The notes beneath the pieces are model-generated. The model did no database searches and was not told where the DNA came from. It saw nothing but the letters and a program-made list of their open reading frames with translations. From a virus, in IMG/VR virus record IMGVR_UViG_3300027823_000001, positions 1-64,000 of that record: a DNA stretch of 64,000 nt; one strand, written 5' to 3'. Numbering within the stretch: the stretch's first letter is position 1; every line of letters begins with the position of its first letter. Below, one piece after another: positions 4,606-54,389 of the stretch. Position numbers and translations under genes: made by a program.

Positions 4606-4618
4606 CATCGGGTATATG
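4606..4618 (+). promoter_or_regulatory. Recurrent phage promoter-like motif (copy 1)
   Basis: CATCGGGTATATG lies 21 nt before the ATG at 4627, and no Shine-Dalgarno sequence lies between them. It supports 4627 as the start of the next gene. Confidence 0.5.
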
Positions 4619-7591: not shown

Positions 7592-8217
7592 TGGTTCAGC
7601 CTGCCATCACGACCCACGTACATGACGTACTGTCGGAGTACGCCAAGCTCACCAAGAGACACACGGGCTACACGGGCACGCCTGAAGCGACGCGCGCCGC
7701 TGTGTCGTTCCTTCGATGGTGCAGAGACAACGAGGTCGAGCAACCGCTGCTCTTCATGTGGCTGCGCTTCCGCATCCTTCGCTCCGGCCGTCGCAACGCA
7801 CTCGCGCACCCGTCGCTACAGAACATGGCCAGCATGGCCATCCTGCCCAAGTACCGCGACCTGAATGCGAACTCTCAGGGTGAGCAGCAGATGCGGAGTC
7901 ACTTCGTGGGGCAATACGAGCGCACGCTCCTGGCCAACAGCGTGGGAGCTGAAGCGGTGCGACGCGACTACGTGATCAACGGGCGCACGGACATGTGCGA
8001 GGTGCAGCCCCGACTGTCTGAGAGCTACCATCCGTTTTCACAGTGGTGCCCTCAGTGCCCACGTGCGCAGTCGTGCGCAGAACGACTGAACAAGCGCGAG
8101 GGCTTCGATGTGGTGGCGCTGCGCTTGGGCAAGCTCTCGCCTGAACAAGCAGCGCAGGCACGCCGACAGCATCGGGTAGATCACACGAGCGGCGCCGTTG
8201 TACCGCGCAGGGAGTAG
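7591..8217 (+). CDS. Unknown protein with C-terminal Cys cluster
   Basis: The 208-residue protein has a helical N-terminal part and a C-terminal cluster CEVQ...WCPQCPRAQSC (about residues 134-160) that could bind a metal ion. It lies between the SF2 helicase and the DnaB-type helicase, overlapping the former as TGATG. A helicase loader or replication accessory role is possible from context alone. GTG 7588 is an alternative start. No family is recognised. Confidence 0.55.
   Translation: MVQPAITTHVHDVLSEYAKLTKRHTGYTGTPEATRAAVSFLRWCRDNEVEQPLLFMWLRFRILRSGRRNALAHPSLQNMASMAILPKYRDLNANSQGEQQMRSHFVGQYERTLLANSVGAEAVRRDYVINGRTDMCEVQPRLSESYHPFSQWCPQCPRAQSCAERLNKREGFDVVALRLGKLSPEQAAQARRQHRVDHTSGAVVPRRE
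8170..8182 (+). promoter_or_regulatory. Recurrent phage promoter-like motif (copy 3)
   Basis: CATCGGGTAGATC lies 50 nt before the helicase start at 8220; a GGGAG ribosome-binding site lies between. The same 15-nt string CATCGGGTAGATCAC recurs at 22449. Confidence 0.4.
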
Positions 8218-12548: not shown

Positions 12549-13057
12549 CCACCCCGAAGACCCACTACGCACCTACGTTCTCTGGCCTCGCCTCGTGCGG
12601 CCCCGTAACGCCCTCTACCACCCCACGACGCGATGCCGTAACCTGTGAGCGTTGCCGCCGCACGGCGGCCTACCAGGCGGCCCCCGCATCGCCCCCGGGG
12701 CCGCTCGCCTTCGTCGTTCAGTCAATCTACGATGGTCGTTGGGCCAACGAGCCGGATGGCGCGTGTTCCTCGATGGAGGAGGCTAAGGACGTGATTGACT
12801 CCCTGGTTGAGACGTACGGCTACGAGCGCAACTCGATGCGCGTCACCATCGTTCGGCTCCCGACTGACTCCGTAGGGCATCTATCGATCACGCGCAAGCT
12901 CCGCGTCTCGGTGGTTGGCGCGCTCTCTCACGAGGCCCACGAGGTTGGCGACCACGCGATGGTCGCGATCTGCTCGCGCGCCCTCGATGGCGAGGCGCGC
13001 GCGGTCGAGGAAGTCGCGCGCGTCCTTGCGGCGGCGGCCAACGAGGTGGCGTCATGA
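12545..13057 (+). CDS. Accessory-island protein, CERC zinc motif plus DGxWAxEP domain
   Basis: This 170-residue protein has an N-terminal half with VTCERCRR, a possible half zinc site. A middle domain follows (FVVQSIYDGRWANEPDG, then IDSLVETYGYER). The middle domain is shared with the N-terminus of the protein at 13877-14221. The C-terminal part is helical and ends in the junction-encoded VAS. The start follows GAGGATCACC, a leader shared with 11162 and 44256. Function is unknown. Confidence 0.6.
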   Translation: MTTPKTHYAPTFSGLASCGPVTPSTTPRRDAVTCERCRRTAAYQAAPASPPGPLAFVVQSIYDGRWANEPDGACSSMEEAKDVIDSLVETYGYERNSMRVTIVRLPTDSVGHLSITRKLRVSVVGALSHEAHEVGDHAMVAICSRALDGEARAVEEVARVLAAAANEVAS

Positions 13058-16570: not shown

Positions 16571-17538
16571 CTACTATTCGTAAGCCCAGAGGATTCGCAA
16601 ACGTGACGACGACAATCGCAGACGCAGCAGACCCGATCGAGTACGAAGACCGCACCGTAGGAGGCGCGGTCTTCGTCGCTCGGAAGGGCACGCATCCCAA
16701 CGTGCCGCTGCCGCGCCCCTACGTCTTCGATCAGAAGCAGTGCCAGGAGATCGCCGTAGGGGTCCGCCGCGGAATGAACGTGCTCCTCACGGGGCCCACG
16801 GGCTGCGGCAAGACCAGCGTGGTCTCGGCGATCGCGTCGCAGATCAATCAGCCGTTCGTGCGCTTCAACTGTGATGGCGAGACCCGGGTCTCGAACTTGC
16901 GAGGCATGATGAAGCCTACGTCGCAGGACGGCGTGCTGACGCTCACGTTCTCGCCTGGTGACCTGGCTCTCGCGATGGAGCAAGGCTACTGGGTGCTGCT
17001 CGACGAGATCGACGCAGCGCTACCGAGCGTGCTGTTCGTGCTCCAGCCTGTGCTGGAGGAAGACCGCCGCGAGCTGCATGTGCCTGAGATCAAGCGCACC
17101 ATCTCCGCGCATCCCGACTTCCGCATCTTCGCAACGGGTAACACGATCGGCTTCCGCTCGGCGTCCCGCGCGCGGCACGCAGGTACCAACCCCATGAACG
17201 CAGCGTTCGTCGATCGCTTCGGCATGCTGATCGCGTGCGACTACGCGAGCAAGGACGACGAGACCAACCGGATCAAGGTCAACGTGCCTGACCTCGACAA
17301 TGACTTCGCCGAGGGCGTGGCGCGCGTCGCAGACGCACTGCGACGTGATGAGAAGTTCAAGGCGGACTTCTCTACTCGTCGTTGCGTGCAGTGGGCACGC
17401 TTGATCGGCGACTTCGACAACGACGTGCTGCGCGCGGCTGAACTCGCGGTGCTACGCAAGTTGGAGAGCCCGACAGACGCAAAGGTCGCACGCGCGATGA
17501 TCCGTCGGATCTTTGGCTACGATGAGGAGAAGGTCTAA
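16561..17538 (+). CDS. CobS-like/MoxR-type AAA+ ATPase
   Basis: The 325-residue protein is a MoxR-branch AAA+ ATPase. Walker A GPTGCGKT is at residues 78-85 and Walker B LLDEIDAA has Asp148-Glu149. A sensor-1-like FATGNT and a downstream Arg-rich VDRF segment follow. It resembles the CobS subunit of cobaltochelatase and its phage homologues. Such ATPases work with a VWA partner as chaperone or metal-insertase machines. A CobT-like VWA gene lies one gene downstream. ATG 16561 has the repeated leader; longer in-frame starts would overlap the previous gene. The substrate is unknown, and a cobalamin role is not implied by the rest of the window. Confidence 0.75.
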   Translation: MDMTTIRKPRGFANVTTTIADAADPIEYEDRTVGGAVFVARKGTHPNVPLPRPYVFDQKQCQEIAVGVRRGMNVLLTGPTGCGKTSVVSAIASQINQPFVRFNCDGETRVSNLRGMMKPTSQDGVLTLTFSPGDLALAMEQGYWVLLDEIDAALPSVLFVLQPVLEEDRRELHVPEIKRTISAHPDFRIFATGNTIGFRSASRARHAGTNPMNAAFVDRFGMLIACDYASKDDETNRIKVNVPDLDNDFAEGVARVADALRRDEKFKADFSTRRCVQWARLIGDFDNDVLRAAELAVLRKLESPTDAKVARAMIRRIFGYDEEKV

Positions 17539-18413
17539 TGGCCACGCGCATCGTAGGCAAACGTATCAAGGTCGGCGGTGACCCTGCGGAGCTGTACCGT
17601 TTCGAAACGAGTGCTGCCCCACACACGGAGGTTCAGCGTTTCGCGTTCGGCCTCTGGCGCGGCTCGACGGAAACGTCTGTGCGTACCGTCATGAGTGTCA
17701 TCGGCGATGTTCAGCGCGGGCTGCTCGTTGATCTCCCGGTGGAGAGTTTCGACAAGCTCGACGCTGGGATCGCGCAAGTGGAAGCCGCGCTCTTCTCATT
17801 CTCCGATCAGCGCGTCTCCTCATTCTCCGAGTGCGAGCAGTGCGAGCCCTCCGATCCGTGCGCGCCTGAGAGCTGGCAGGTCTCGATTCGCAACCAGCAC
17901 GCGCGCGTGGTCACGAAGACAAAGTTCACCATGGGATGGCTGGGCTCCCACACATGGTGGATGATCGAAGGCGGTTGGCTGACCCCGATCGGAGGGCGCC
18001 CTCTTTCGGAGGGCTACATACAGAAGATGGAAACAGCGACGCTTGTTTCAACCGTTGAGTCCGCTGCAAACAAGGCGTTTGTGAATGAGATCAGGAACGT
18101 CGAGGCGATGCCTAATCGCATCGCCACGAAGATCACCTCGTACCTCGGTCCGAGCATCTCAGACGAAGACATCGCAGCTGGCATCGCCGCCACGTGGAGC
18201 AACCTGCACGCTGAGGAACAGAAGCGCCGCGTGATCGAACAGCGGCGCGCCGAAGAAGTTCGGCTCTTGCTCGCGCAGCAAGAGCATGCGACTCGGCTCA
18301 TCGAAGAAGAACGACAGCGACGGATCGCAGCAGGCGATGTGTCAGCTCTCGACGATCAAGGACTTGCATCAAAGCTTCGTGCTAAGCGCACGAAGGGAAT
18401 GGAACCGTCATGA
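17538..18413 (+). CDS. Unknown protein between the AAA+ and VWA genes
   Basis: This 291-residue protein has a beta-rich first half with a Cys/Ser stretch (FSECEQCEPSDPCAPESW). A second half is a long charged helix (EEQKRRVIEQRRAEEVRLLL) likely to be a coiled coil. It is coupled to the AAA+ gene by TAATG and to the VWA gene by ATGA. It is therefore probably part of the same complex, perhaps an adaptor. No homologue is recognised by eye. Confidence 0.6.
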   Translation: MATRIVGKRIKVGGDPAELYRFETSAAPHTEVQRFAFGLWRGSTETSVRTVMSVIGDVQRGLLVDLPVESFDKLDAGIAQVEAALFSFSDQRVSSFSECEQCEPSDPCAPESWQVSIRNQHARVVTKTKFTMGWLGSHTWWMIEGGWLTPIGGRPLSEGYIQKMETATLVSTVESAANKAFVNEIRNVEAMPNRIATKITSYLGPSISDEDIAAGIAATWSNLHAEEQKRRVIEQRRAEEVRLLLAQQEHATRLIEEERQRRIAAGDVSALDDQGLASKLRAKRTKGMEPS

Positions 18414-20458
18414 TCCAACACGAGATGGAAAGGCTCGGTCGGCTACTCGCCTACGACCGCGACCTGAAGGTAGATGTGCGAGGCACGCGCGCGTACTCGA
18501 CGCCCGGACGCGTCGTGATCCCCAACGCAGCGAAGTACGAGCACCTTGGCGACAACGCTGAGAGGATGTTGCACGCGCTCCTCGATCACGAGTGCGGTCA
18601 TGCGAAGCACACCGAGCACGCGTTCATGGAGCGCGCGCACAAGCATGGAGGCAGTGCGCTGCACAGCCTGGTGAACGGTCTGGAGGACGGTCGTGTCGAG
18701 CGCTTGATGGGCAACGAGTACATCGGCTGCCGGCAGAACCTGCACGCGAAGAATCGGTGGTTCTGGGAGGATGAGAAGTGGCGGGCAGGCTTTCTCGCGA
18801 AGGACGCGTGGGGCGCGTTTTGCGTCGCCGTGACGTTGCACACGCGGGGCTCGGTGAGCCTCGCAGAGATCGATGCTGCCCGCCCTGAGATCGGGAGCTT
18901 GCTTCGTGTTGCGCTGTCTCTCGGCGTAGATCGTGCGGCAGGGGCAGCATCGACTGCGGAGGTCTACAGGATCGCGCTCGAAGTGTGGGAGCACTTCAAG
19001 CAGCCTCCGCCGCCTCCGCCCGAAGCATCCGATGACGAGTCTGACGAGAACACCGAAGCGGAAGACACCGAAGCGGAAGACACCGAAGCGGAAGACACCG
19101 AAGCGGAAGACACCGAAGCGGAAGACACCGAAGCCGAGGACACCGAAGCCGAGGACACCGAAGGCGACGATACAGATGGTGCTGTTGGCGAAGGCGACGA
19201 CAACGAAGCCGAGGACAGCAACGAAGCCGGCGGTGACGAAGCCGAGGACAGCAACGAAGCCGGCGATGACGACGGCGATGCTGCTGAAGGCGGCGTGAGT
19301 GACGGCGGGCGCATCGACCCGTATGCAGCGCTTCGCGCCCTCGGGCCACTCGACAGTTGGAGCAAGGCGAACAGCGTGGTGGATCCTGAAGAGGCCATCT
19401 GTACGCTCATGGAACAGTCGTACGAAGGGCAGCAGCAGTACCGAGTGTTCTCACACGAGTTCGACATCGAGCGCGACTTCTACGCGCACCCTCTACCCGC
19501 GAGCACCGAGTGCACCGACACGCTGGAAGAGATTGAACACGATGCCATCGAGGCTAGCTCTGCGCTCACGCAAGCGTTCGAGGTCGCGCTGCGTGCGCGT
19601 CGCGAGAAGCGTCCTGTTGGCGGTAACGACGAAGGCGAAGTCGATCTCGACCTGATGGGCGAGTACGCAACAGGGTCTGTGTCGTCCGACACGATCTACC
19701 AGCAGTTCATCTCCGAGGATGATCGCGACGTGACGGTTGCGATCATGCTCGACTGCTCAGGCTCGATGTACTCTCGAAGCCGTCTCGCGAGGCGCACTGC
19801 CTACGCGCTGCATCTTGCGCTGGAAGCCTGCTCGATCCAGCACGAGATCACAGGCTTCACTACCATCTCGTCTGCGGACTTCAGAGAGAAGCTCTGGACG
19901 AGTGATCGGCCTGAACTCGGAGTGCACTTCGCCGCGATGCGCGCTGCCATGATTGAAGCCGAGAAGCACGGGGTGAACCCTATGCTCTTTGCCCGAGAGA
20001 TGTGGCGCGCAGGTGGTAGTAGTAACTCCTTGGCGCTCTCGCCGCTGTTCGTGCCGACGTACGCGGTCTTCAAGCCCTACGGAGTCTCCGACATGCAGGC
20101 ACTGAAGTACGCCCAAGGCATTCACGAAAATCTCGATGGTGAGGCCGTGCTCTGGCAGGCTCGGCGGCTTGCCTCACGACCTGAAAAGCGTCGCGTGATG
20201 TTCGTCCTCTCGGACGGCATGCCCGCAGGCACGCGGGACTCGCGCCTCGGCGTGGAACATCTGAAGGAAAGCGTTCAGCATGTGCTCGACGCAGGGATCG
20301 AGGTGTACGGCATCGGAATCGAAACGACGGCCGTGCAGCACTTCTACCCACGACACTGGGTCGCCAACTCGATCGACGAGCTGATGGCTGTCGCGTTCGC
20401 GAGCTTCGCGCAGGTGCTCACGGAAGGCCGCAGCGAGGTCGAATGCGTGAACTTGTAG
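18410..20458 (+). CDS. CobT-like VWA-domain protein
   Basis: The 682-residue protein has an N-terminal domain with HECGH (residues 60-64) and a CobT-like LEDGRVERLMG segment. An acidic, proline-flanked linker (about 205-300) contains a TEAED repeat. The C-terminal VWA domain has an intact MIDAS motif DCSGS at 448-452. With the MoxR/CobS-like ATPase it resembles a cobaltochelatase-type AAA+/VWA pair. Pairs like this occur in other phages, where their target is unclear. The C-terminus overlaps the sigma-like gene by 16 nt. The HExxH and MIDAS suggest two metal sites. Confidence 0.75.
   Translation: MIQHEMERLGRLLAYDRDLKVDVRGTRAYSTPGRVVIPNAAKYEHLGDNAERMLHALLDHECGHAKHTEHAFMERAHKHGGSALHSLVNGLEDGRVERLMGNEYIGCRQNLHAKNRWFWEDEKWRAGFLAKDAWGAFCVAVTLHTRGSVSLAEIDAARPEIGSLLRVALSLGVDRAAGAASTAEVYRIALEVWEHFKQPPPPPPEASDDESDENTEAEDTEAEDTEAEDTEAEDTEAEDTEAEDTEAEDTEGDDTDGAVGEGDDNEAEDSNEAGGDEAEDSNEAGDDDGDAAEGGVSDGGRIDPYAALRALGPLDSWSKANSVVDPEEAICTLMEQSYEGQQQYRVFSHEFDIERDFYAHPLPASTECTDTLEEIEHDAIEASSALTQAFEVALRARREKRPVGGNDEGEVDLDLMGEYATGSVSSDTIYQQFISEDDRDVTVAIMLDCSGSMYSRSRLARRTAYALHLALEACSIQHEITGFTTISSADFREKLWTSDRPELGVHFAAMRAAMIEAEKHGVNPMLFAREMWRAGGSSNSLALSPLFVPTYAVFKPYGVSDMQALKYAQGIHENLDGEAVLWQARRLASRPEKRRVMFVLSDGMPAGTRDSRLGVEHLKESVQHVLDAGIEVYGIGIETTAVQHFYPRHWVANSIDELMAVAFASFAQVLTEGRSEVECVNL
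19049..19163 (+). repeat. 15-bp tandem repeat encoding an acidic linker
   Basis: The unit GACACCGAAGCGGAA repeats about seven and a half times, drifting to GCCGAG in later units. It encodes TEAED repeats in the linker between the two domains of the VWA protein. The run is a likely site of length variation between isolates. Confidence 0.85.
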
Positions 20459-22362
20459 CGCCCGTCTCGAACTTCGGATCCTTCGACGACATCGTGTCCA
20501 GGGAAGTGCGCCGCATAGGTCGCGTCCCTGGACACGACACGGAGGACCTGAAGCAAGAGGCGCGCATCGCCGTCGTGAAGGCCCTGTCGCGCTACGATCG
20601 GAAGAGCACAGGGCGCACGTTCATCGCGGTGGCGGTGCGGAACAAGCTGATCAATCTGAAGAGGAACGCGTGCACGAACGGGCGCGTACCTCGCGATGCG
20701 CACGGACGCTTGGCGTCGCTGCACTCGCTCGACACTCCGGTACCTGGCGATGACGGCGAGCAGACCTGGCTCGATCGAATCGCTGATGAAGCATCCGACG
20801 CTGAGGAATCAGCATCTGCGCGCGAACTCGTGCGCGCGTTGGATGAGCGGCTCTCGGCACAGGAGATGTCGCTGCTCGTTACCGCGCTGGTCGAAGGCGC
20901 GAAGATCGGAACGGCTCGCGCCCGAGGCGAGCGAGTGAACGCAGGGGACGTGGATCGCGTGCGAGCAACTGCGCGCGATACGATCGCAAGGCTACTCGGC
21001 CAACGACGGATGTTGACGAGTGATGGACATCGTGTAGATACAAGACCGGAGGAACTGAAGATGACGACGACGAAAGTGACCCTGCCCATAGTGAAGACCG
21101 AAGAACTGCCCGACTGTCACGCGGCTCTGCCCACGGGGCCGGGCTACGACCCTGCCGATCTGCTGTGCCGTGACCAGTGCCGTGATAAGTTCTCGTGCGT
21201 GCGCGACCTTGTGAACGATCGGGCCAAGAACGAGAAGGGCTACACGCTGGCCGTGGACACCGAGGTCCAGGCCGTGCTCTCGGGCACGCTCTCGCACGAC
21301 GACGCCATCGCACGCATGAAGAAGCGCAACGCGATCGTGGAGAGCGGAGGTCAGATCACCGACGCTCTCTCGACGGTGCTGCCGCTCGCGAAGGCGCCTG
21401 CGCCCGCCGTGAAGGCACCTGCGGCGCCCCCGACGCTCGCGCCCGCCGCCGAACCCGCAGCACCCGCTGCGCCTGTTGTGGAGGCTCCTGCGCGCGTCCC
21501 CGAACCCGAACCGACCGACACCAAGACGAGCGACAAGACGAGCGACACCAAGACGAGCGAGGAAGACATGGGCACCAAGACGAGCGAGGAAGACATGGGC
21601 ACCAAGAAGAAGGCCGCCAACAAGCCTGAGAAGGCCGCCAAGAAGAAGGACGCACCGCCGCCTGAGAAGGCCGCCAAGAAGAAGGACGCACCGCCGCCCC
21701 CCAACAAGCCTGAGAAGGCCGCCAAGAAGAAGGACGCACCGCCGCCCCCCAACAAGCCTGAGACGAAGCCCGAGGGCGCCCCGAAGCGCAAGGGCAAGGC
21801 GCCCATCCCCACGGCGAACCGTGTGGCGATCTACGGGGCGGGCAAGGAGCGCTGGCTTCCTCAGCCGCGCGCGCTGACCGAGGATCAGATGGCTGCGGCG
21901 CTCGGGCGCGTGCGCCTCGGGCAGAGCTTCGACCTCGCGATCGGGATGGAGATCGTGCGCAAGAAGCGCGATGGCTCCGAGGTCGTGGTGAAGATCGCGA
22001 AGGATGGCTTCGCGATGGACGGTGTCACCTACCCGTCGCTCTCCGCCGCAGGTCAGTGGGCGTCGCGCCGCGCCGTCTCCGGCAACGACTTCTTCAACGT
22101 CGAGGTTTACTCGTGCACCGAGATCCGGGGCAAGGGCGTGCCACAGGCGGTCTACTCCAAGCAGGGAGAGGGCAAGGCAGCAGTGGTCGGCGCGCACGTC
22201 GAGAAGACGGTGCAGCCGAAGAAGGCCGCCGCACCGAAGGCTGCGAAGAAGGCGACCAAGAAGGATGCGAAGAAGGCGACCAAGAAGGCTGCGAAGAAGG
22301 CGACCAAGAAGGCCGCGCCGCCGCCCCCGAAGGCCGCGAAGAAGGCGACCAAGAAGAAGTGA
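20443..22362 (+). CDS. Sigma-70-like region fused in frame to a DUF2924/histone-H1-like protein
   Basis: This is one uninterrupted 639-codon frame. Residues 1 to about 205 look like a sigma factor: DTEDLKQEARIAVVKALSRY and an aromatic/Arg helix match region 2, and a later helix could be a reduced region 4. From residue 207 a different protein begins, with a Cys pair, a Pro/Lys linker, a DUF2924-like domain and a (KKATKKAA)n tail. A promoter-like motif at 21028 and GGAGGAACTGAAG before ATG 21061 suggest the second part is also made alone. Either a fusion or a lost stop codon explains the layout. The start overlaps the VWA gene by 16 nt. Confidence 0.65.
   Translation: MRELVAPVSNFGSFDDIVSREVRRIGRVPGHDTEDLKQEARIAVVKALSRYDRKSTGRTFIAVAVRNKLINLKRNACTNGRVPRDAHGRLASLHSLDTPVPGDDGEQTWLDRIADEASDAEESASARELVRALDERLSAQEMSLLVTALVEGAKIGTARARGERVNAGDVDRVRATARDTIARLLGQRRMLTSDGHRVDTRPEELKMTTTKVTLPIVKTEELPDCHAALPTGPGYDPADLLCRDQCRDKFSCVRDLVNDRAKNEKGYTLAVDTEVQAVLSGTLSHDDAIARMKKRNAIVESGGQITDALSTVLPLAKAPAPAVKAPAAPPTLAPAAEPAAPAAPVVEAPARVPEPEPTDTKTSDKTSDTKTSEEDMGTKTSEEDMGTKKKAANKPEKAAKKKDAPPPEKAAKKKDAPPPPNKPEKAAKKKDAPPPPNKPETKPEGAPKRKGKAPIPTANRVAIYGAGKERWLPQPRALTEDQMAAALGRVRLGQSFDLAIGMEIVRKKRDGSEVVVKIAKDGFAMDGVTYPSLSAAGQWASRRAVSGNDFFNVEVYSCTEIRGKGVPQAVYSKQGEGKAAVVGAHVEKTVQPKKAAAPKAAKKATKKDAKKATKKAAKKATKKAAPPPPKAAKKATKKK
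21028..21040 (+). promoter_or_regulatory. Recurrent phage promoter-like motif (copy 4), internal
   Basis: CATCGTGTAGATA lies inside the long fused frame, 33 nt before ATG 21061. A GGAGG ribosome-binding site lies between the two. It supports separate expression of the downstream domain. Confidence 0.5.
21061..22362 (+). CDS. DUF2924-like, Lys/Ala-rich DNA-binding protein (internal start)
   Basis: From ATG 21061 this frame encodes 433 residues. An N-terminal segment has CRDQCRDKFSCV. A Pro/Ala/Lys linker follows with repeated EKAAKKKDAPPP units. A folded domain around residues 245-340 (DGVTYPSLSAAGQWASRRAV) resembles DUF2924. The C-terminus of about 60 residues is made of AAKKATKK repeats like histone H1. 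It could condense phage or host DNA. The strong GGAGGAAC ribosome-binding site and the internal promoter-like motif argue that this is an independent product of the fused frame. Confidence 0.6.
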   Translation: MTTTKVTLPIVKTEELPDCHAALPTGPGYDPADLLCRDQCRDKFSCVRDLVNDRAKNEKGYTLAVDTEVQAVLSGTLSHDDAIARMKKRNAIVESGGQITDALSTVLPLAKAPAPAVKAPAAPPTLAPAAEPAAPAAPVVEAPARVPEPEPTDTKTSDKTSDTKTSEEDMGTKTSEEDMGTKKKAANKPEKAAKKKDAPPPEKAAKKKDAPPPPNKPEKAAKKKDAPPPPNKPETKPEGAPKRKGKAPIPTANRVAIYGAGKERWLPQPRALTEDQMAAALGRVRLGQSFDLAIGMEIVRKKRDGSEVVVKIAKDGFAMDGVTYPSLSAAGQWASRRAVSGNDFFNVEVYSCTEIRGKGVPQAVYSKQGEGKAAVVGAHVEKTVQPKKAAAPKAAKKATKKDAKKATKKAAKKATKKAAPPPPKAAKKATKKK

Positions 22363-22448: not shown

Positions 22449-22461
22449 CATCGGGTAGATC
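22449..22461 (+). promoter_or_regulatory. Recurrent phage promoter-like motif (copy 5)
   Basis: CATCGGGTAGATC follows the terminator. Its TAGATC part ends 6 nt before ATG 22467, and no ribosome-binding site lies between, so the transcript would be leaderless. Confidence 0.6.
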
Positions 22462-22466
22462 ACAGT

Positions 22467-22736
22467 ATGTCCCCAGGTTGGATCGTGAACGTTTCACGCG
22501 ACGATGGTACGCACGAGGTCGAGCGCGATCACGCGCCCTGCCTCGTGCTCGACAACGGCGACTTCGTGTTCGAGGTCTGGTTCTGGCATAGCACTCTGCG
22601 CTGCTACTTCTGCCTGACGCGCGGTCCGCACGCAGCCCGCGCGATCGCGCAAGGCGTGATCTACTTCCATCCCGACGACGTACCGCACGCACTGCGCGCT
22701 CGCGTGGAAGCCGCGCAGCTGAAGCTCGCTAGCTGA
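22467..22736 (+). CDS. Small hypothetical protein ahead of DNA polymerase
   Basis: The 89-residue protein is beta-rich with many aromatics (FVFEVWFWHSTLRCYF) and a helical C-terminus. It has a leaderless-type promoter position and a TGATG overlap with the polymerase gene. No family is recognised. Confidence 0.55.
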   Translation: MSPGWIVNVSRDDGTHEVERDHAPCLVLDNGDFVFEVWFWHSTLRCYFCLTRGPHAARAIAQGVIYFHPDDVPHALRARVEAAQLKLAS

Positions 22737-24950: not shown

Positions 24951-24963
24951 CATCGGGTATAGA
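24951..24963 (+). promoter_or_regulatory. Recurrent phage promoter-like motif (copy 6)
   Basis: CATCGGGTATAGA follows the polymerase gene and lies 25 nt before ATG 24976. A weak AGAGAGGA ribosome-binding site lies between them. Confidence 0.6.
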
Positions 24964-35856: not shown

Positions 35857-35869
35857 CATCGGGTATAGA
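35857..35869 (+). promoter_or_regulatory. Recurrent phage promoter-like motif (copy 7)
   Basis: CATCGGGTATAGA lies 29 nt before ATG 35886. A TTTGGAGG ribosome-binding site lies between, so this copy would give a leadered transcript. Confidence 0.6.
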
Positions 35870-38242: not shown

Positions 38243-38255
38243 CATCGGGTATAGG
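38243..38255 (+). promoter_or_regulatory. Recurrent phage promoter-like motif (copy 8)
   Basis: CATCGGGTATAGG follows the deoxyribosyltransferase-like gene. Its TATAGG part ends 6 nt before GTG 38261, the leaderless spacing. Confidence 0.6.
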
Positions 38256-42030: not shown

Positions 42031-42043
42031 CATCGTGTAGAGA
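42031..42043 (+). promoter_or_regulatory. Recurrent phage promoter-like motif (copy 9)
   Basis: CATCGTGTAGAGA ends 7 nt before ATG 42050, the leaderless spacing; no ribosome-binding site is visible between. Confidence 0.6.
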
Positions 42044-48667: not shown

Positions 48668-48680
48668 CATCGGGTATGTA
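48668..48680 (+). promoter_or_regulatory. Recurrent phage promoter-like motif (copy 12)
   Basis: CATCGGGTATGTA ends 7 nt before ATG 48687, the leaderless spacing. Confidence 0.55.
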
Positions 48681-49501: not shown

Positions 49502-49514
49502 CATCGTGTATAGT
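49502..49514 (+). promoter_or_regulatory. Recurrent phage promoter-like motif (copy 13)
   Basis: CATCGTGTATAGT lies 31 nt before ATG 49533. GTGGAGGTTCCGACC, with a good ribosome-binding site, lies between. Confidence 0.6.
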
Positions 49515-50908: not shown

Positions 50909-51455
50909 ACGACCGAAGACCTACGGAGAGGAGCTACGCCGCTGGCCTCCTGAGATGCTCTCCAGCGGAGAGCTGAAGCAGCTCGCCGATGAACGTGCGT
51001 GGGAGCGCACGCACCCGCAAGAGGTCGCCGCGCTCGACGCGCTACTCGGCGAGCGCGTGGTGCTCGTTGCAAAGCAGGAGGGCCTCTATGCGACGTGGGC
51101 AGAGGAACTACCGCCACGCGAGCGCCGCATCCCCGGAGTGACTGGGATCCTCATCCCGACGCACCTACGCGCAGGGCTCGCGTTCGTGGTCCAGGCAAGG
51201 CTCGGCTCACGGCTGCTGGGAGTCGATGCAGTTGGAGAGCCGTGGCTCTTGCGTCGCGAGTGGCTGCGAGTCTCACATCGTGTAGAGAGTGCGCATGGTA
51301 CTGAAGAAGGGCCGAACAGTACGAGTAGGACCGCCGATCAGCAACGCGACGCGAGAGGCGCTAGCGCGAGCGACAGCTGCACAGCCCGAGCCCCCGAAGC
51401 AGCGCCGCGACATCCTGGTTTCGTCGAACGTCACCCCCGACCAATGCTCCGATGA
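50898..51455 (+). CDS. Hypothetical protein with TTG start
   Basis: The 185-residue frame starts at TTG 50898, chosen because GTGGAGG ends 6 nt upstream and no better start exists. Residues 1 to about 130 are protein-like (EEGLY-type helices, VTGILIPTHLRAGLAFVVQA). The last 50 residues are low-complexity and read the next gene out of frame, giving a 161-bp overlap. No family is recognised. Confidence 0.45.
   Translation: MPRERPKTYGEELRRWPPEMLSSGELKQLADERAWERTHPQEVAALDALLGERVVLVAKQEGLYATWAEELPPRERRIPGVTGILIPTHLRAGLAFVVQARLGSRLLGVDAVGEPWLLRREWLRVSHRVESAHGTEEGPNSTSRTADQQRDARGASASDSCTARAPEAAPRHPGFVERHPRPMLR
51276..51288 (+). promoter_or_regulatory. Recurrent phage promoter-like motif (copy 14)
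   Basis: CATCGTGTAGAGA ends 7 nt before ATG 51295, the leaderless spacing; no ribosome-binding site is visible. Confidence 0.6.
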
Positions 51456-52163: not shown

Positions 52164-53885
52164 ATGCACTCCTTCCCTGCGACGGCTTCTCGCAAGGGTA
52201 CGACGCGATCGGTACCAGCTGCGAAAGCCACCGTCACCGCGTCGCACCTTGGTCATGATCCAACGTGGGGACCGCTGTACGCGAACATGCTCGCGCAGTC
52301 GCTGTGTCTGTTCGCGAGAGACATACTCGGACTGACCATCGCCGAGTTCATGCTGGAGTGGGAGGACATGGTCCACTCTCACGATCGGATCGCGACGCTC
52401 GCTGCTCGTGACCACGGCAAGAGCACTTGGTGGACCTACGCCTACCCGATCTGGCGCGCCGTGTTCGAGCCAGGCGCTGAGGTTTACATCTTCGGCAAGA
52501 CGCAGGAGAGCGCGCAGGAGTACATTGACATCATCCTCTATGGGAAGGGCAACCTCCGAGGCATGGTGGACATCGCGTCGCTCTCGGACTTGGTGCCGAC
52601 GCGCGAGCAGACGATGCGAGACCCGCGTCTGCGCCTGAACAAGAGCGACGTGCGCTTTCACAATGGCTCGCGCATCCGCGCCGTGTCGTGGGGCAAGAGC
52701 ACGCGTGGTCGCCACCCGAAGTACGTAGTGTGCGACGACGTACTCTCCGATGAGGACATGTGGTCGGAGACGACGCGCAAAAAGAACATCGAGTACTTCA
52801 AGGGCGCGATCACGAACATGCCGCCGCCCAACGGTCAGCTGATCGTGGTGGGCACGCCCTTCCATGCAGCGGACCTATACAACTGGCTGCGTATCAACAA
52901 GCGCTACACGTTCAAGAAGTTCCCGGGCATCGTGCGAGAGGGGGGCACTGAGCGCGCTCTCTTCCCAGGGCGATGGTCTCTGAAGCTGCTCTACATGAAG
53001 CGGGAGGAGATCGGCTCTGTCGCGTTCGCGCGAGAGATCCTGTGCGAGCCCATCACAGACGACCTCTCGATCTTCCCCTCGCACCTGTTCCCGCCGCTGC
53101 ACGATGCAGGCATGCGACTGCGCCCCAAGCGCAGCGTGATCAAGCAACTGGGCTGGCAGGTCTACATGGGCGTGGACCTCGCGCTCTCTGCGAGCGTCGG
53201 CGCCGACTTCACCGTGATCTTCGTGATCGCCAAAGATCACGATGGTCAGCGCTACATTCTGGACATCGTACGCACCAAGGGGCTCGCGTTTCGCAAGCAG
53301 CTCGAACTGATCGAACGCGTCGCCAAGCGATACGACCCGAACCTGATCTTCATTGAGGCCAACCTCTTCCAACGCATCTACAGCGACGAGATGCGCCGCA
53401 CGACCGACCTCCCGGTCAAGCCGTTCATCACGCACGCGCACAACAAGAACCCACTCGACAAGGGCATTCCCTCGCTGCGCATCCTGCTGGAGAACGAGAA
53501 GTACACGATCCCGTACGACACCAAGGATGCTTACACCGTCGAGAACATCGTAACGTGGGAGAGCGAGGCGAGCCAGTTCGGCTTCGTCGATGGGAAGCTA
53601 CAGGGGATCGGCGAACACGACGATACGGTGATGGCGTGGTGGCTCGCTGAAGAAGCCTGCAAGGCCGGCGGCTTCACGTTCGCGATGGGTGACGACGAGG
53701 AGACGGGCGAGGGAGGCGACATCGTTGGTGACGACTCTCCTGGCGGCGCTGAGGAAGATGCACACTGGAAGCGCGAGATGGGGCTCACTGATGAGGGTGA
53801 CGAGAAGGAGGACGCGGCTGAAGACGATCGCTTCGAGGACTACGACGATCCGTTCGGCATCGGACCACCGAAGCGCCCTTCGTGA
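52164..53885 (+). CDS. terL: Terminase large subunit
   Basis: The 573-residue protein is the DNA-packaging motor. Its ATPase domain has Walker A ARDHGKST (residues 81-88) and Walker B YVVCDD (187-192), plus a coupling VVGTP near 228-232. The RNase H-like nuclease domain has the first Asp in MGVDLALS (Asp338), a Glu in IFIEAN near 398, and HDD at 485-487. An acidic C-terminal tail follows. It would cut and pump concatemeric DNA into proheads. The start at ATG 52164 lacks a strong ribosome-binding site. Confidence 0.9.
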   Translation: MHSFPATASRKGTTRSVPAAKATVTASHLGHDPTWGPLYANMLAQSLCLFARDILGLTIAEFMLEWEDMVHSHDRIATLAARDHGKSTWWTYAYPIWRAVFEPGAEVYIFGKTQESAQEYIDIILYGKGNLRGMVDIASLSDLVPTREQTMRDPRLRLNKSDVRFHNGSRIRAVSWGKSTRGRHPKYVVCDDVLSDEDMWSETTRKKNIEYFKGAITNMPPPNGQLIVVGTPFHAADLYNWLRINKRYTFKKFPGIVREGGTERALFPGRWSLKLLYMKREEIGSVAFAREILCEPITDDLSIFPSHLFPPLHDAGMRLRPKRSVIKQLGWQVYMGVDLALSASVGADFTVIFVIAKDHDGQRYILDIVRTKGLAFRKQLELIERVAKRYDPNLIFIEANLFQRIYSDEMRRTTDLPVKPFITHAHNKNPLDKGIPSLRILLENEKYTIPYDTKDAYTVENIVTWESEASQFGFVDGKLQGIGEHDDTVMAWWLAEEACKAGGFTFAMGDDEETGEGGDIVGDDSPGGAEEDAHWKREMGLTDEGDEKEDAAEDDRFEDYDDPFGIGPPKRPS

Positions 53886-53920
53886 CGATGCCACACGCGC
53901 ACGCTACGCTGCGCGCACTA

Positions 53921-53941
53921 CGCAGGTGGGGTCCACCTGCG
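53921..53941 (+). other. Perfect 9-bp hairpin before a head gene
   Basis: CGCAGGTGG and CCACCTGCG flank a three-base loop. The hairpin lies 8 nt before a GAAAGGA ribosome-binding site and could stabilise the mRNA or attenuate transcription after terminase. Confidence 0.55.
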
Positions 53942-53963
53942 CAACTGAAAGGAACGGACCATC

Positions 53964-54389
53964 ATGGGTATTCGCACTCTCTACTCGGACATCTATCTCA
54001 ACACGCAGAACGGCAAGACCGACGTACCGTACGCGAGCAAGCTCGAACTCGTGCGCGCGATCATGCTGCACGCGGCCGAGGCGTACTCGGGACGCTTCAC
54101 CGGAACGGGCGCAGCGCTGGAGGTCGTGACCCCCTTCGCTCCGGGCTTCGTGATCCTCTTCAATCGCACGGCGCCATGCTTGGTGGTGAAGATGCCTGGC
54201 ATGGCTGCGGCTGCGTCGATGAAGCTCAACGGCACGCCCGCGCTGACGTACACGGGCACCAACATGGTCACACTCGGCGTGGTGGCTGGTCCGCTGGGCT
54301 TCACGGTCGGCACGGATGCCGACCTCAACACGGCCGCCGAAGTGGTCGAGTGGGTGGCGCTCGGCTTCCGTGATCAGGCCTCTCTCTGA
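53964..54389 (+). CDS. Putative virion protein
   Basis: The 141-residue protein is beta-rich with many small residues (VVTPFAPGFVILFNRTAP, TNMVTLGVVAGPLGFTVG). It resembles small capsid-decoration or head proteins in general character only. A good ribosome-binding site (GAAAGGAACGG) suggests strong expression. It lies between terminase and the large head genes. A similar small protein follows the portal gene at 61639. Confidence 0.5.
   Translation: MGIRTLYSDIYLNTQNGKTDVPYASKLELVRAIMLHAAEAYSGRFTGTGAALEVVTPFAPGFVILFNRTAPCLVVKMPGMAAAASMKLNGTPALTYTGTNMVTLGVVAGPLGFTVGTDADLNTAAEVVEWVALGFRDQASL

Follow-up and report, generated by a model that had tools for sequence, protein, structure and literature searches.

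An ECF-type phage sigma factor in one reading frame with a long C-terminal extension that carries internal start signals

The window analyzed here, the whole stretch of 64,000 nucleotides of viral DNA from a 100-kb record, carries on its plus strand an open reading frame of 639 codons. In this frame, a sigma domain is followed without a stop codon by a DUF2924-like and Lys/Ala-rich protein, as the preliminary description of this DNA had stated. The locus was compared with that of L003 and L004, two near-identical contigs found via the DNA polymerase, and with that of G017, a 105-kb distant phage found via the major capsid protein. Over the fusion gene L003 and L004 do not differ, hence the independent lineages with the fusion are two, not three. 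The features of the locus are:

18410–20458, plus strand: CobT-like VWA protein, the upstream neighbour (CobT_C, 1.8e-21; TIGR01651, 1.1e-14)
20443–20458, plus strand: start of the sigma gene inside the end of the CobT-like gene; overlap also in L003 and G017 (GTGA)
20443–22362, plus strand: 639-codon ORF (sigma factor, cysteine domain, linker, DUF2924-like domain, Lys/Ala tail)
20443–21012, plus strand: sigma factor, probably two-domain, residues 1-190 (region 2, residues 21-75; sigma4-like helices, residues 120-186)
21013–21018, plus strand: TTGACG, a possible -35 element, kept in L003; the other motif copies have no shared -35
21028–21040, plus strand: CATCGTGTAGATA, a copy of the putative promoter motif, at the joint and within the ORF; identical in L003/L004, absent there in G017
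21048–21052, plus strand: GGAGG ribosome-binding site, 8 nt before ATG 21061
21061–22362, plus strand: nested in-phase gene for a 433-residue cysteine/DUF2924/tail protein; internal Met kept in three of three phages
21061–21375, plus strand: four-cysteine domain (C225, C242, C246, C252); these Cys and H226 do not vary among the three phages
21376–21807, plus strand: low-complexity linker, disordered and here rich in Lys, Pro and Ala
21808–22197, plus strand: DUF2924-like domain (profile match 21925–22101)
22198–22359, plus strand: Lys/Ala repeat tail, residues 586-639, net charge +20; missing in G017
22467–22736, plus strand: downstream gene of 89 aa, syntenic in three of three phages

The gene order CobT, fusion, 89-aa gene and PolA is common to all three phages, and the overlap of the CobT-like and sigma genes likely reflects translational coupling. 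A CobS-like AAA ATPase and the CobT-like VWA protein form a pair directly upstream of the fusion (window 16588-20458), and 15-bp acidic repeats lie within the CobT-like gene (19050-19163). The first 127 bp of the window are repeated exactly at the end of the record (G000 99969-100095), so that the record is probably a complete genome, circular or terminally redundant. Its structural module encodes a 2289-aa protein with an SNF2-type helicase domain (L005:3312-10181, equal to G000 67312-74181, outside the window).

When residues 1-206 were compared with Pfam, Sigma-70 region 2 (PF04542) was matched at residues 21-75 (6.6e-7; 29.5 bits vs a cut-off of 24). The NCBIfam sigma70-ECF model (TIGR02937) matched residues 22-151 at 1.8e-9, its 37.4 bits being under the cut-off of 42.9, and the sigma factor family PHROG 351 matched residues 29-190 (1.9e-9). 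The first 190 residues are matched to sigma factors by all three collections, whereas the preliminary description had named a lack of sigma matches over the first 205 residues in profile searches as evidence against its reading. Pfam region 4 gave no match; the PHROG 351 match reaches residue 190, and the models place helices at residues 120-186. Two AlphaFold models, both of low confidence (pLDDT 62 and 58), showed helices as expected for a sigma factor. With these low-confidence models as queries, nearly all top Foldseek matches in the PDB were sigma chains, and region 2 of SigE was matched with an rmsd of 2.3-2.7 and a TMt of up to 0.71. We conclude that the N-terminus is a sigma factor, probably of the two-domain kind (sigma2 plus sigma4-like, ECF-type). 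The region-2-like domain first described is upheld and refined, as region 2 probably does not stand alone. Such a protein should work with the host RNA polymerase. Standalone sigmas of the same two-domain class, of 166-218 aa, were found in four more distant phages (L065, L066, L067 and L002), but there a stop directly follows the sigma domain and the extension is lacking. Because these sigmas end right after the sigma domain, we regard the sigma as a domain that occurs alone elsewhere and is fused here; their existence places the joint just after it.

The reading frame is open across the joint in L003/L004, where the product is 62% identical to the window protein over residues 4-314, and in G017, with 38% identity over the sigma plus cysteine domain. 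A stop before 21061 in relatives had been named beforehand as the finding that speaks against the fusion, and none was present. The G017 gene spans the contig ends, with both pieces open in frame: one encodes the sigma, the cysteine domain and a Lys/Ala linker, and the other the final linker repeats again, followed by the DUF2924-like domain. Hence, PF04542 and PF11149 are both in the same gene in three of three phages (across the contig ends in G017), and an extra domain follows sigma4 in frame in three phages of two independent lineages. At the joint, insertions and deletions comprise whole codons. The protein sequence of the sigma body is conserved (60% and about 37% identity), and its codons carry many synonymous changes. 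As judged from the genomes compared, the in-frame sigma fusion is real and kept in two independent, related lineages, and since the sigma frame lacks a separate stop codon, its translation should give the fusion. Single-protein searches of viral contigs returned almost no relatives, small alignments used as queries returned close relatives again and nothing further, and no fusion was found in the genome collection searched. Annotated phages gave weak hits only, and the other capsid relatives were mostly fragments. One capsid relative (L068, 71%), which lies on a contig of 66 kb in a Gammaproteobacteria MAG, is the sole, and weak, hint of a host.

The division into a sigma and an extension that was described initially stands, but it missed the conserved four-cysteine domain that follows the internal ATG. 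The cysteines of this domain are spaced C-x16-C-x3-C-x5-C; it had no Pfam match and belongs to no known family. WhiB-like proteins, which act via sigma region 4, also have four cysteines with a similar spacing, with C-x2-C there vs C-x3-C here. A WhiB identity was rejected (no match to PF02467 at E up to 10, control positive), and so was a RAMA identity (no match to PF18755 at E up to 10, control positive). The linker that follows flips from basic in the window (21376-21807) to strongly acidic in the close relative L003 (net charge -78), while the flanking domains both stay conserved. The DUF2924 profile (PF11149) matched residues 495-553 at 1.6e-4 and 22.4 bits, under the Pfam curated cut-off of 31.2. 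A weak match recurs in all three phages, at 22-25 bits and each time under that cut-off, so the DUF2924-like label holds as a likeness below the curated threshold. The Lys/Ala tail is present here, but G017 has Lys/Ala repeats in its linker instead. 'H1-like' describes composition only, and DNA binding by the tail is putative. Because G017 lacks the C-terminal tail and the linker of the close relative is acidic, a sigma tethered to an H1-like tail, as first proposed, is not a conserved feature, and DNA tethering by charge may be a feature of some members at most.

The strong ribosome-binding site and putative internal start noted earlier at ATG 21061 were confirmed as sequence signals. Only 5.2% of the internal in-frame ATGs in the genome have a ribosome-binding site match as good. 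Its counterpart is GGAGGAGG in L003 and a weaker AGGGG in G017, so that the site is strong in two of the three phages. Upstream, conservation of TTGACG may stem from coding constraint. At the joint, eight of the 10 comparable codons are identical in DNA vs 49 of 110 in the sigma body, which, with such small numbers, is compatible with an overlap between the code and a DNA element. The G017 joint has no CATCG motif; a 40-nt stretch there is among the most AT-rich of the G017 genome (0.02% quantile). A short product from ATG 21061 is likely, because the motif at 21028 precedes the ribosome-binding site and this ATG, and we infer that both proteins are made.

The motif at the joint, earlier called promoter-like, is not a chance occurrence but a member of a phage-wide set. 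Up to three mismatches, CATCGTGTAGATA was seen 26 times vs 8.6 expected, and none of 100 shuffles had as many. In an unsupervised word count over the whole 100-kb record, CATCGGGTA was among the most over-represented 9-mers, with 11 seen, 0.29 expected and none on the minus strand. The 11 strong copies of CATCGKGTAKAKM all lie on the plus strand and within the non-structural half; the minus strand and the structural half contain no strong copy. Further copies of this putative promoter motif in the window are:

4606–4618, plus strand: ATG 8 nt after; counterpart at 51016 in relative G2
8170–8182, plus strand: upstream of a DnaB-like helicase; the matching interval has copies in G2 (53716) and G017 (90601)
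22449–22461, plus strand: ATG of the next gene 5 nt after; counterparts at this place in G2 and G017
24951–24963, plus strand: directly behind the DNA polymerase gene; syntenic copies in G2 and G017
35857–35869, plus strand: ATG 16 nt after; counterpart at 12945 in G017
38243–38255, plus strand: one mismatch
42031–42043, plus strand: ATG 6 nt after
48668–48680, plus strand: one mismatch; ATG 6 nt after (short ORF)
49502–49514, plus strand: one mismatch
51276–51288, plus strand: ATG 6 nt after

The relative G2 has six strong sites, each of them on the gene strand and outside the structural half; their positions correspond to sites in the window phage, in one case to a weaker site. In G017 the motif has diverged to AATCGKGTAAG, AATCGTGTAA heads the list of over-represented words, and several sites correspond, among them those before the 89-aa gene and after PolA. 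The next ATG lies 5-8 nt past several copies, a distance as expected for the -10 element of leaderless mRNAs, and 12-37 nt past others, often with a ribosome-binding site. Because several copies are so close to an ATG, CATCGKGTAKAKM is probably the early/middle promoter of the phage, with some leaderless mRNAs. No -35 partner is common to the motif copies, TTGACG-N16-TAGATA was not enriched (12 seen vs 19 expected), and no standard sigma-70 promoters were found in 14-30 kb. A search for a T7-type RNA polymerase as reader of the motif gave no match, but the control was equally silent. No separate late promoter motif was established. Two other conserved blocks were observed. An TATACTCG block conserved with G2 precedes a late gene (L006; G000 92540-92629, outside the window) and is a possible late promoter. 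A hairpin-like GCAGGTGGGGTCCACCTGC at 53880-53964, upstream of gene 53964, is strongly conserved between the window phage and G2.

What the DNA itself shows is the sigma, its conserved fusion, the signals for an internal start and the repeated motif; we place modest confidence in the following account of them. The phage would encode a two-domain ECF-type sigma whose long C-terminal extension starts with the conserved four-cysteine domain, continues with the disordered linker and the DUF2924-like domain and ends here in a basic tail. Translation coupled to that of the CobT-like gene would yield only the fusion of 639 residues, as no stop codon interrupts the frame between the sigma and the last codon of the extension, and the motif at the joint, the ribosome-binding site and ATG 21061 would yield the 433-residue extension alone. 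Most likely, the fusion would direct the host RNA polymerase to phage promoters. The extension would regulate the sigma, via the cysteine domain, or hold it on phage DNA, and the separately made extension would compete with the fusion or serve as a DNA-associated protein. That the motif acts as a promoter, that the sigma reads it, and that any DNA binding or regulation takes place are predictions from sequence. A narrower version, which we put forward as speculation with little expectation that it holds, is that a single ORF supplies a sigma factor together with its regulator or anchor: the sigma would read CATCGKGTA, and the internal copy would make the extension alone, which would restrain or compete with the fusion in a self-limiting switch.

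Which polymerase partner reads CATCGKGTAKAKM is almost evenly balanced in our judgement: a host sigma or other machinery might well read it, with the phage sigma reserved for other, possibly late, promoters. In favour of this reading, the motif is confined to the non-structural half, where the sigma gene itself sits; against it, the motif diverges between phages in parallel with the sigma (one comparison only), and an alternative late motif was not found. The cysteine domain, for its part, might be an on-board sensor of metal or redox state as in CorE and OrbS, with the DUF2924 and basic parts secondary. This somewhat unlikely reading is a special case of the favoured account and compatible with it. 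It draws on the invariance of the four Cys and the His next to sigma4 in three phages and on the CorE and OrbS precedents (PMC8999054, PMC9023288), but the spacing is unlike that of CorE, CorE2 and OrbS, and the cysteine domain has its own start codon and is therefore probably made without the sigma.

We consider it unlikely that the locus is in effect two genes, in which the protein from ATG 21061 would be the only abundant product, the sigma would be split off by cleavage or frameshifting, and the fusion would have no function. The motif, ribosome-binding site and ATG at the joint would suit such an arrangement, as would the standalone sigmas of other phages. One stop codon would, however, suffice for a simple separation, and two independent lineages have no in-frame stop despite whole-codon indels at the joint. 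That the sigma part has degenerated and persists only because the downstream gene has its promoter at the joint is highly improbable: it would account for joint DNA conserved beyond coding need, but not for a sigma body that is conserved as protein while its codons change synonymously, nor for a G017 sigma that still matches sigma families.

From the recurring single-block motif and the ATGs that follow it at 5-8 nt, phage promoters and leaderless mRNAs are predicted for an uncultured phage group, and the pairing of sigma and promoter becomes directly testable in vitro. In the literature searched, which covered few subscription journals, there was no report of a phage sigma whose large extension is partly DNA-binding-like and is expressed internally as well. 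In phage lambda, C and Nu3 are in-phase nested genes, and a second product arises from an internal in-frame start as proposed here; unlike in C/Nu3, a separate promoter motif accompanies the internal start here, and a sigma factor forms the N-terminal part. The phages phiEco32 and 7-11 have a sigma that is a distant relative of the sigmaA family and a one-block promoter motif, TAATGTATA, according to the portion of the published account available (PMC4331800). A phage sigma with a one-block motif is thus shared with the present phage, but the motif is different, and structural genes use the phage motif there whereas the structural half is without it here; that portion mentions no fusion. Sigma factors with fused regulatory domains are already known in bacteria: in CorE and OrbS, C-terminal extensions after the sigma2-sigma4 core are cysteine-based regulators (PMC8999054, PMC9023288, PMC3426412). 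The cysteine patterns of CorE (C-x4-C-x2-C-x1-C), CorE2 and OrbS (C196/199/203/209) were considered for the present domain and rejected. By our comparison, the domain recalls CorE and OrbS by position, not spacing, and WhiB by spacing, not profile. As in the bacterial ECF sigmas with a C-terminal extension, a sigma2-sigma4 core is followed by an extra domain; unlike them, the present protein is phage-borne, its cysteines are spaced differently, its extension of ~430 residues comprises a linker, a DUF2924-like domain and a basic tail, and it has an internal start with its own promoter motif.
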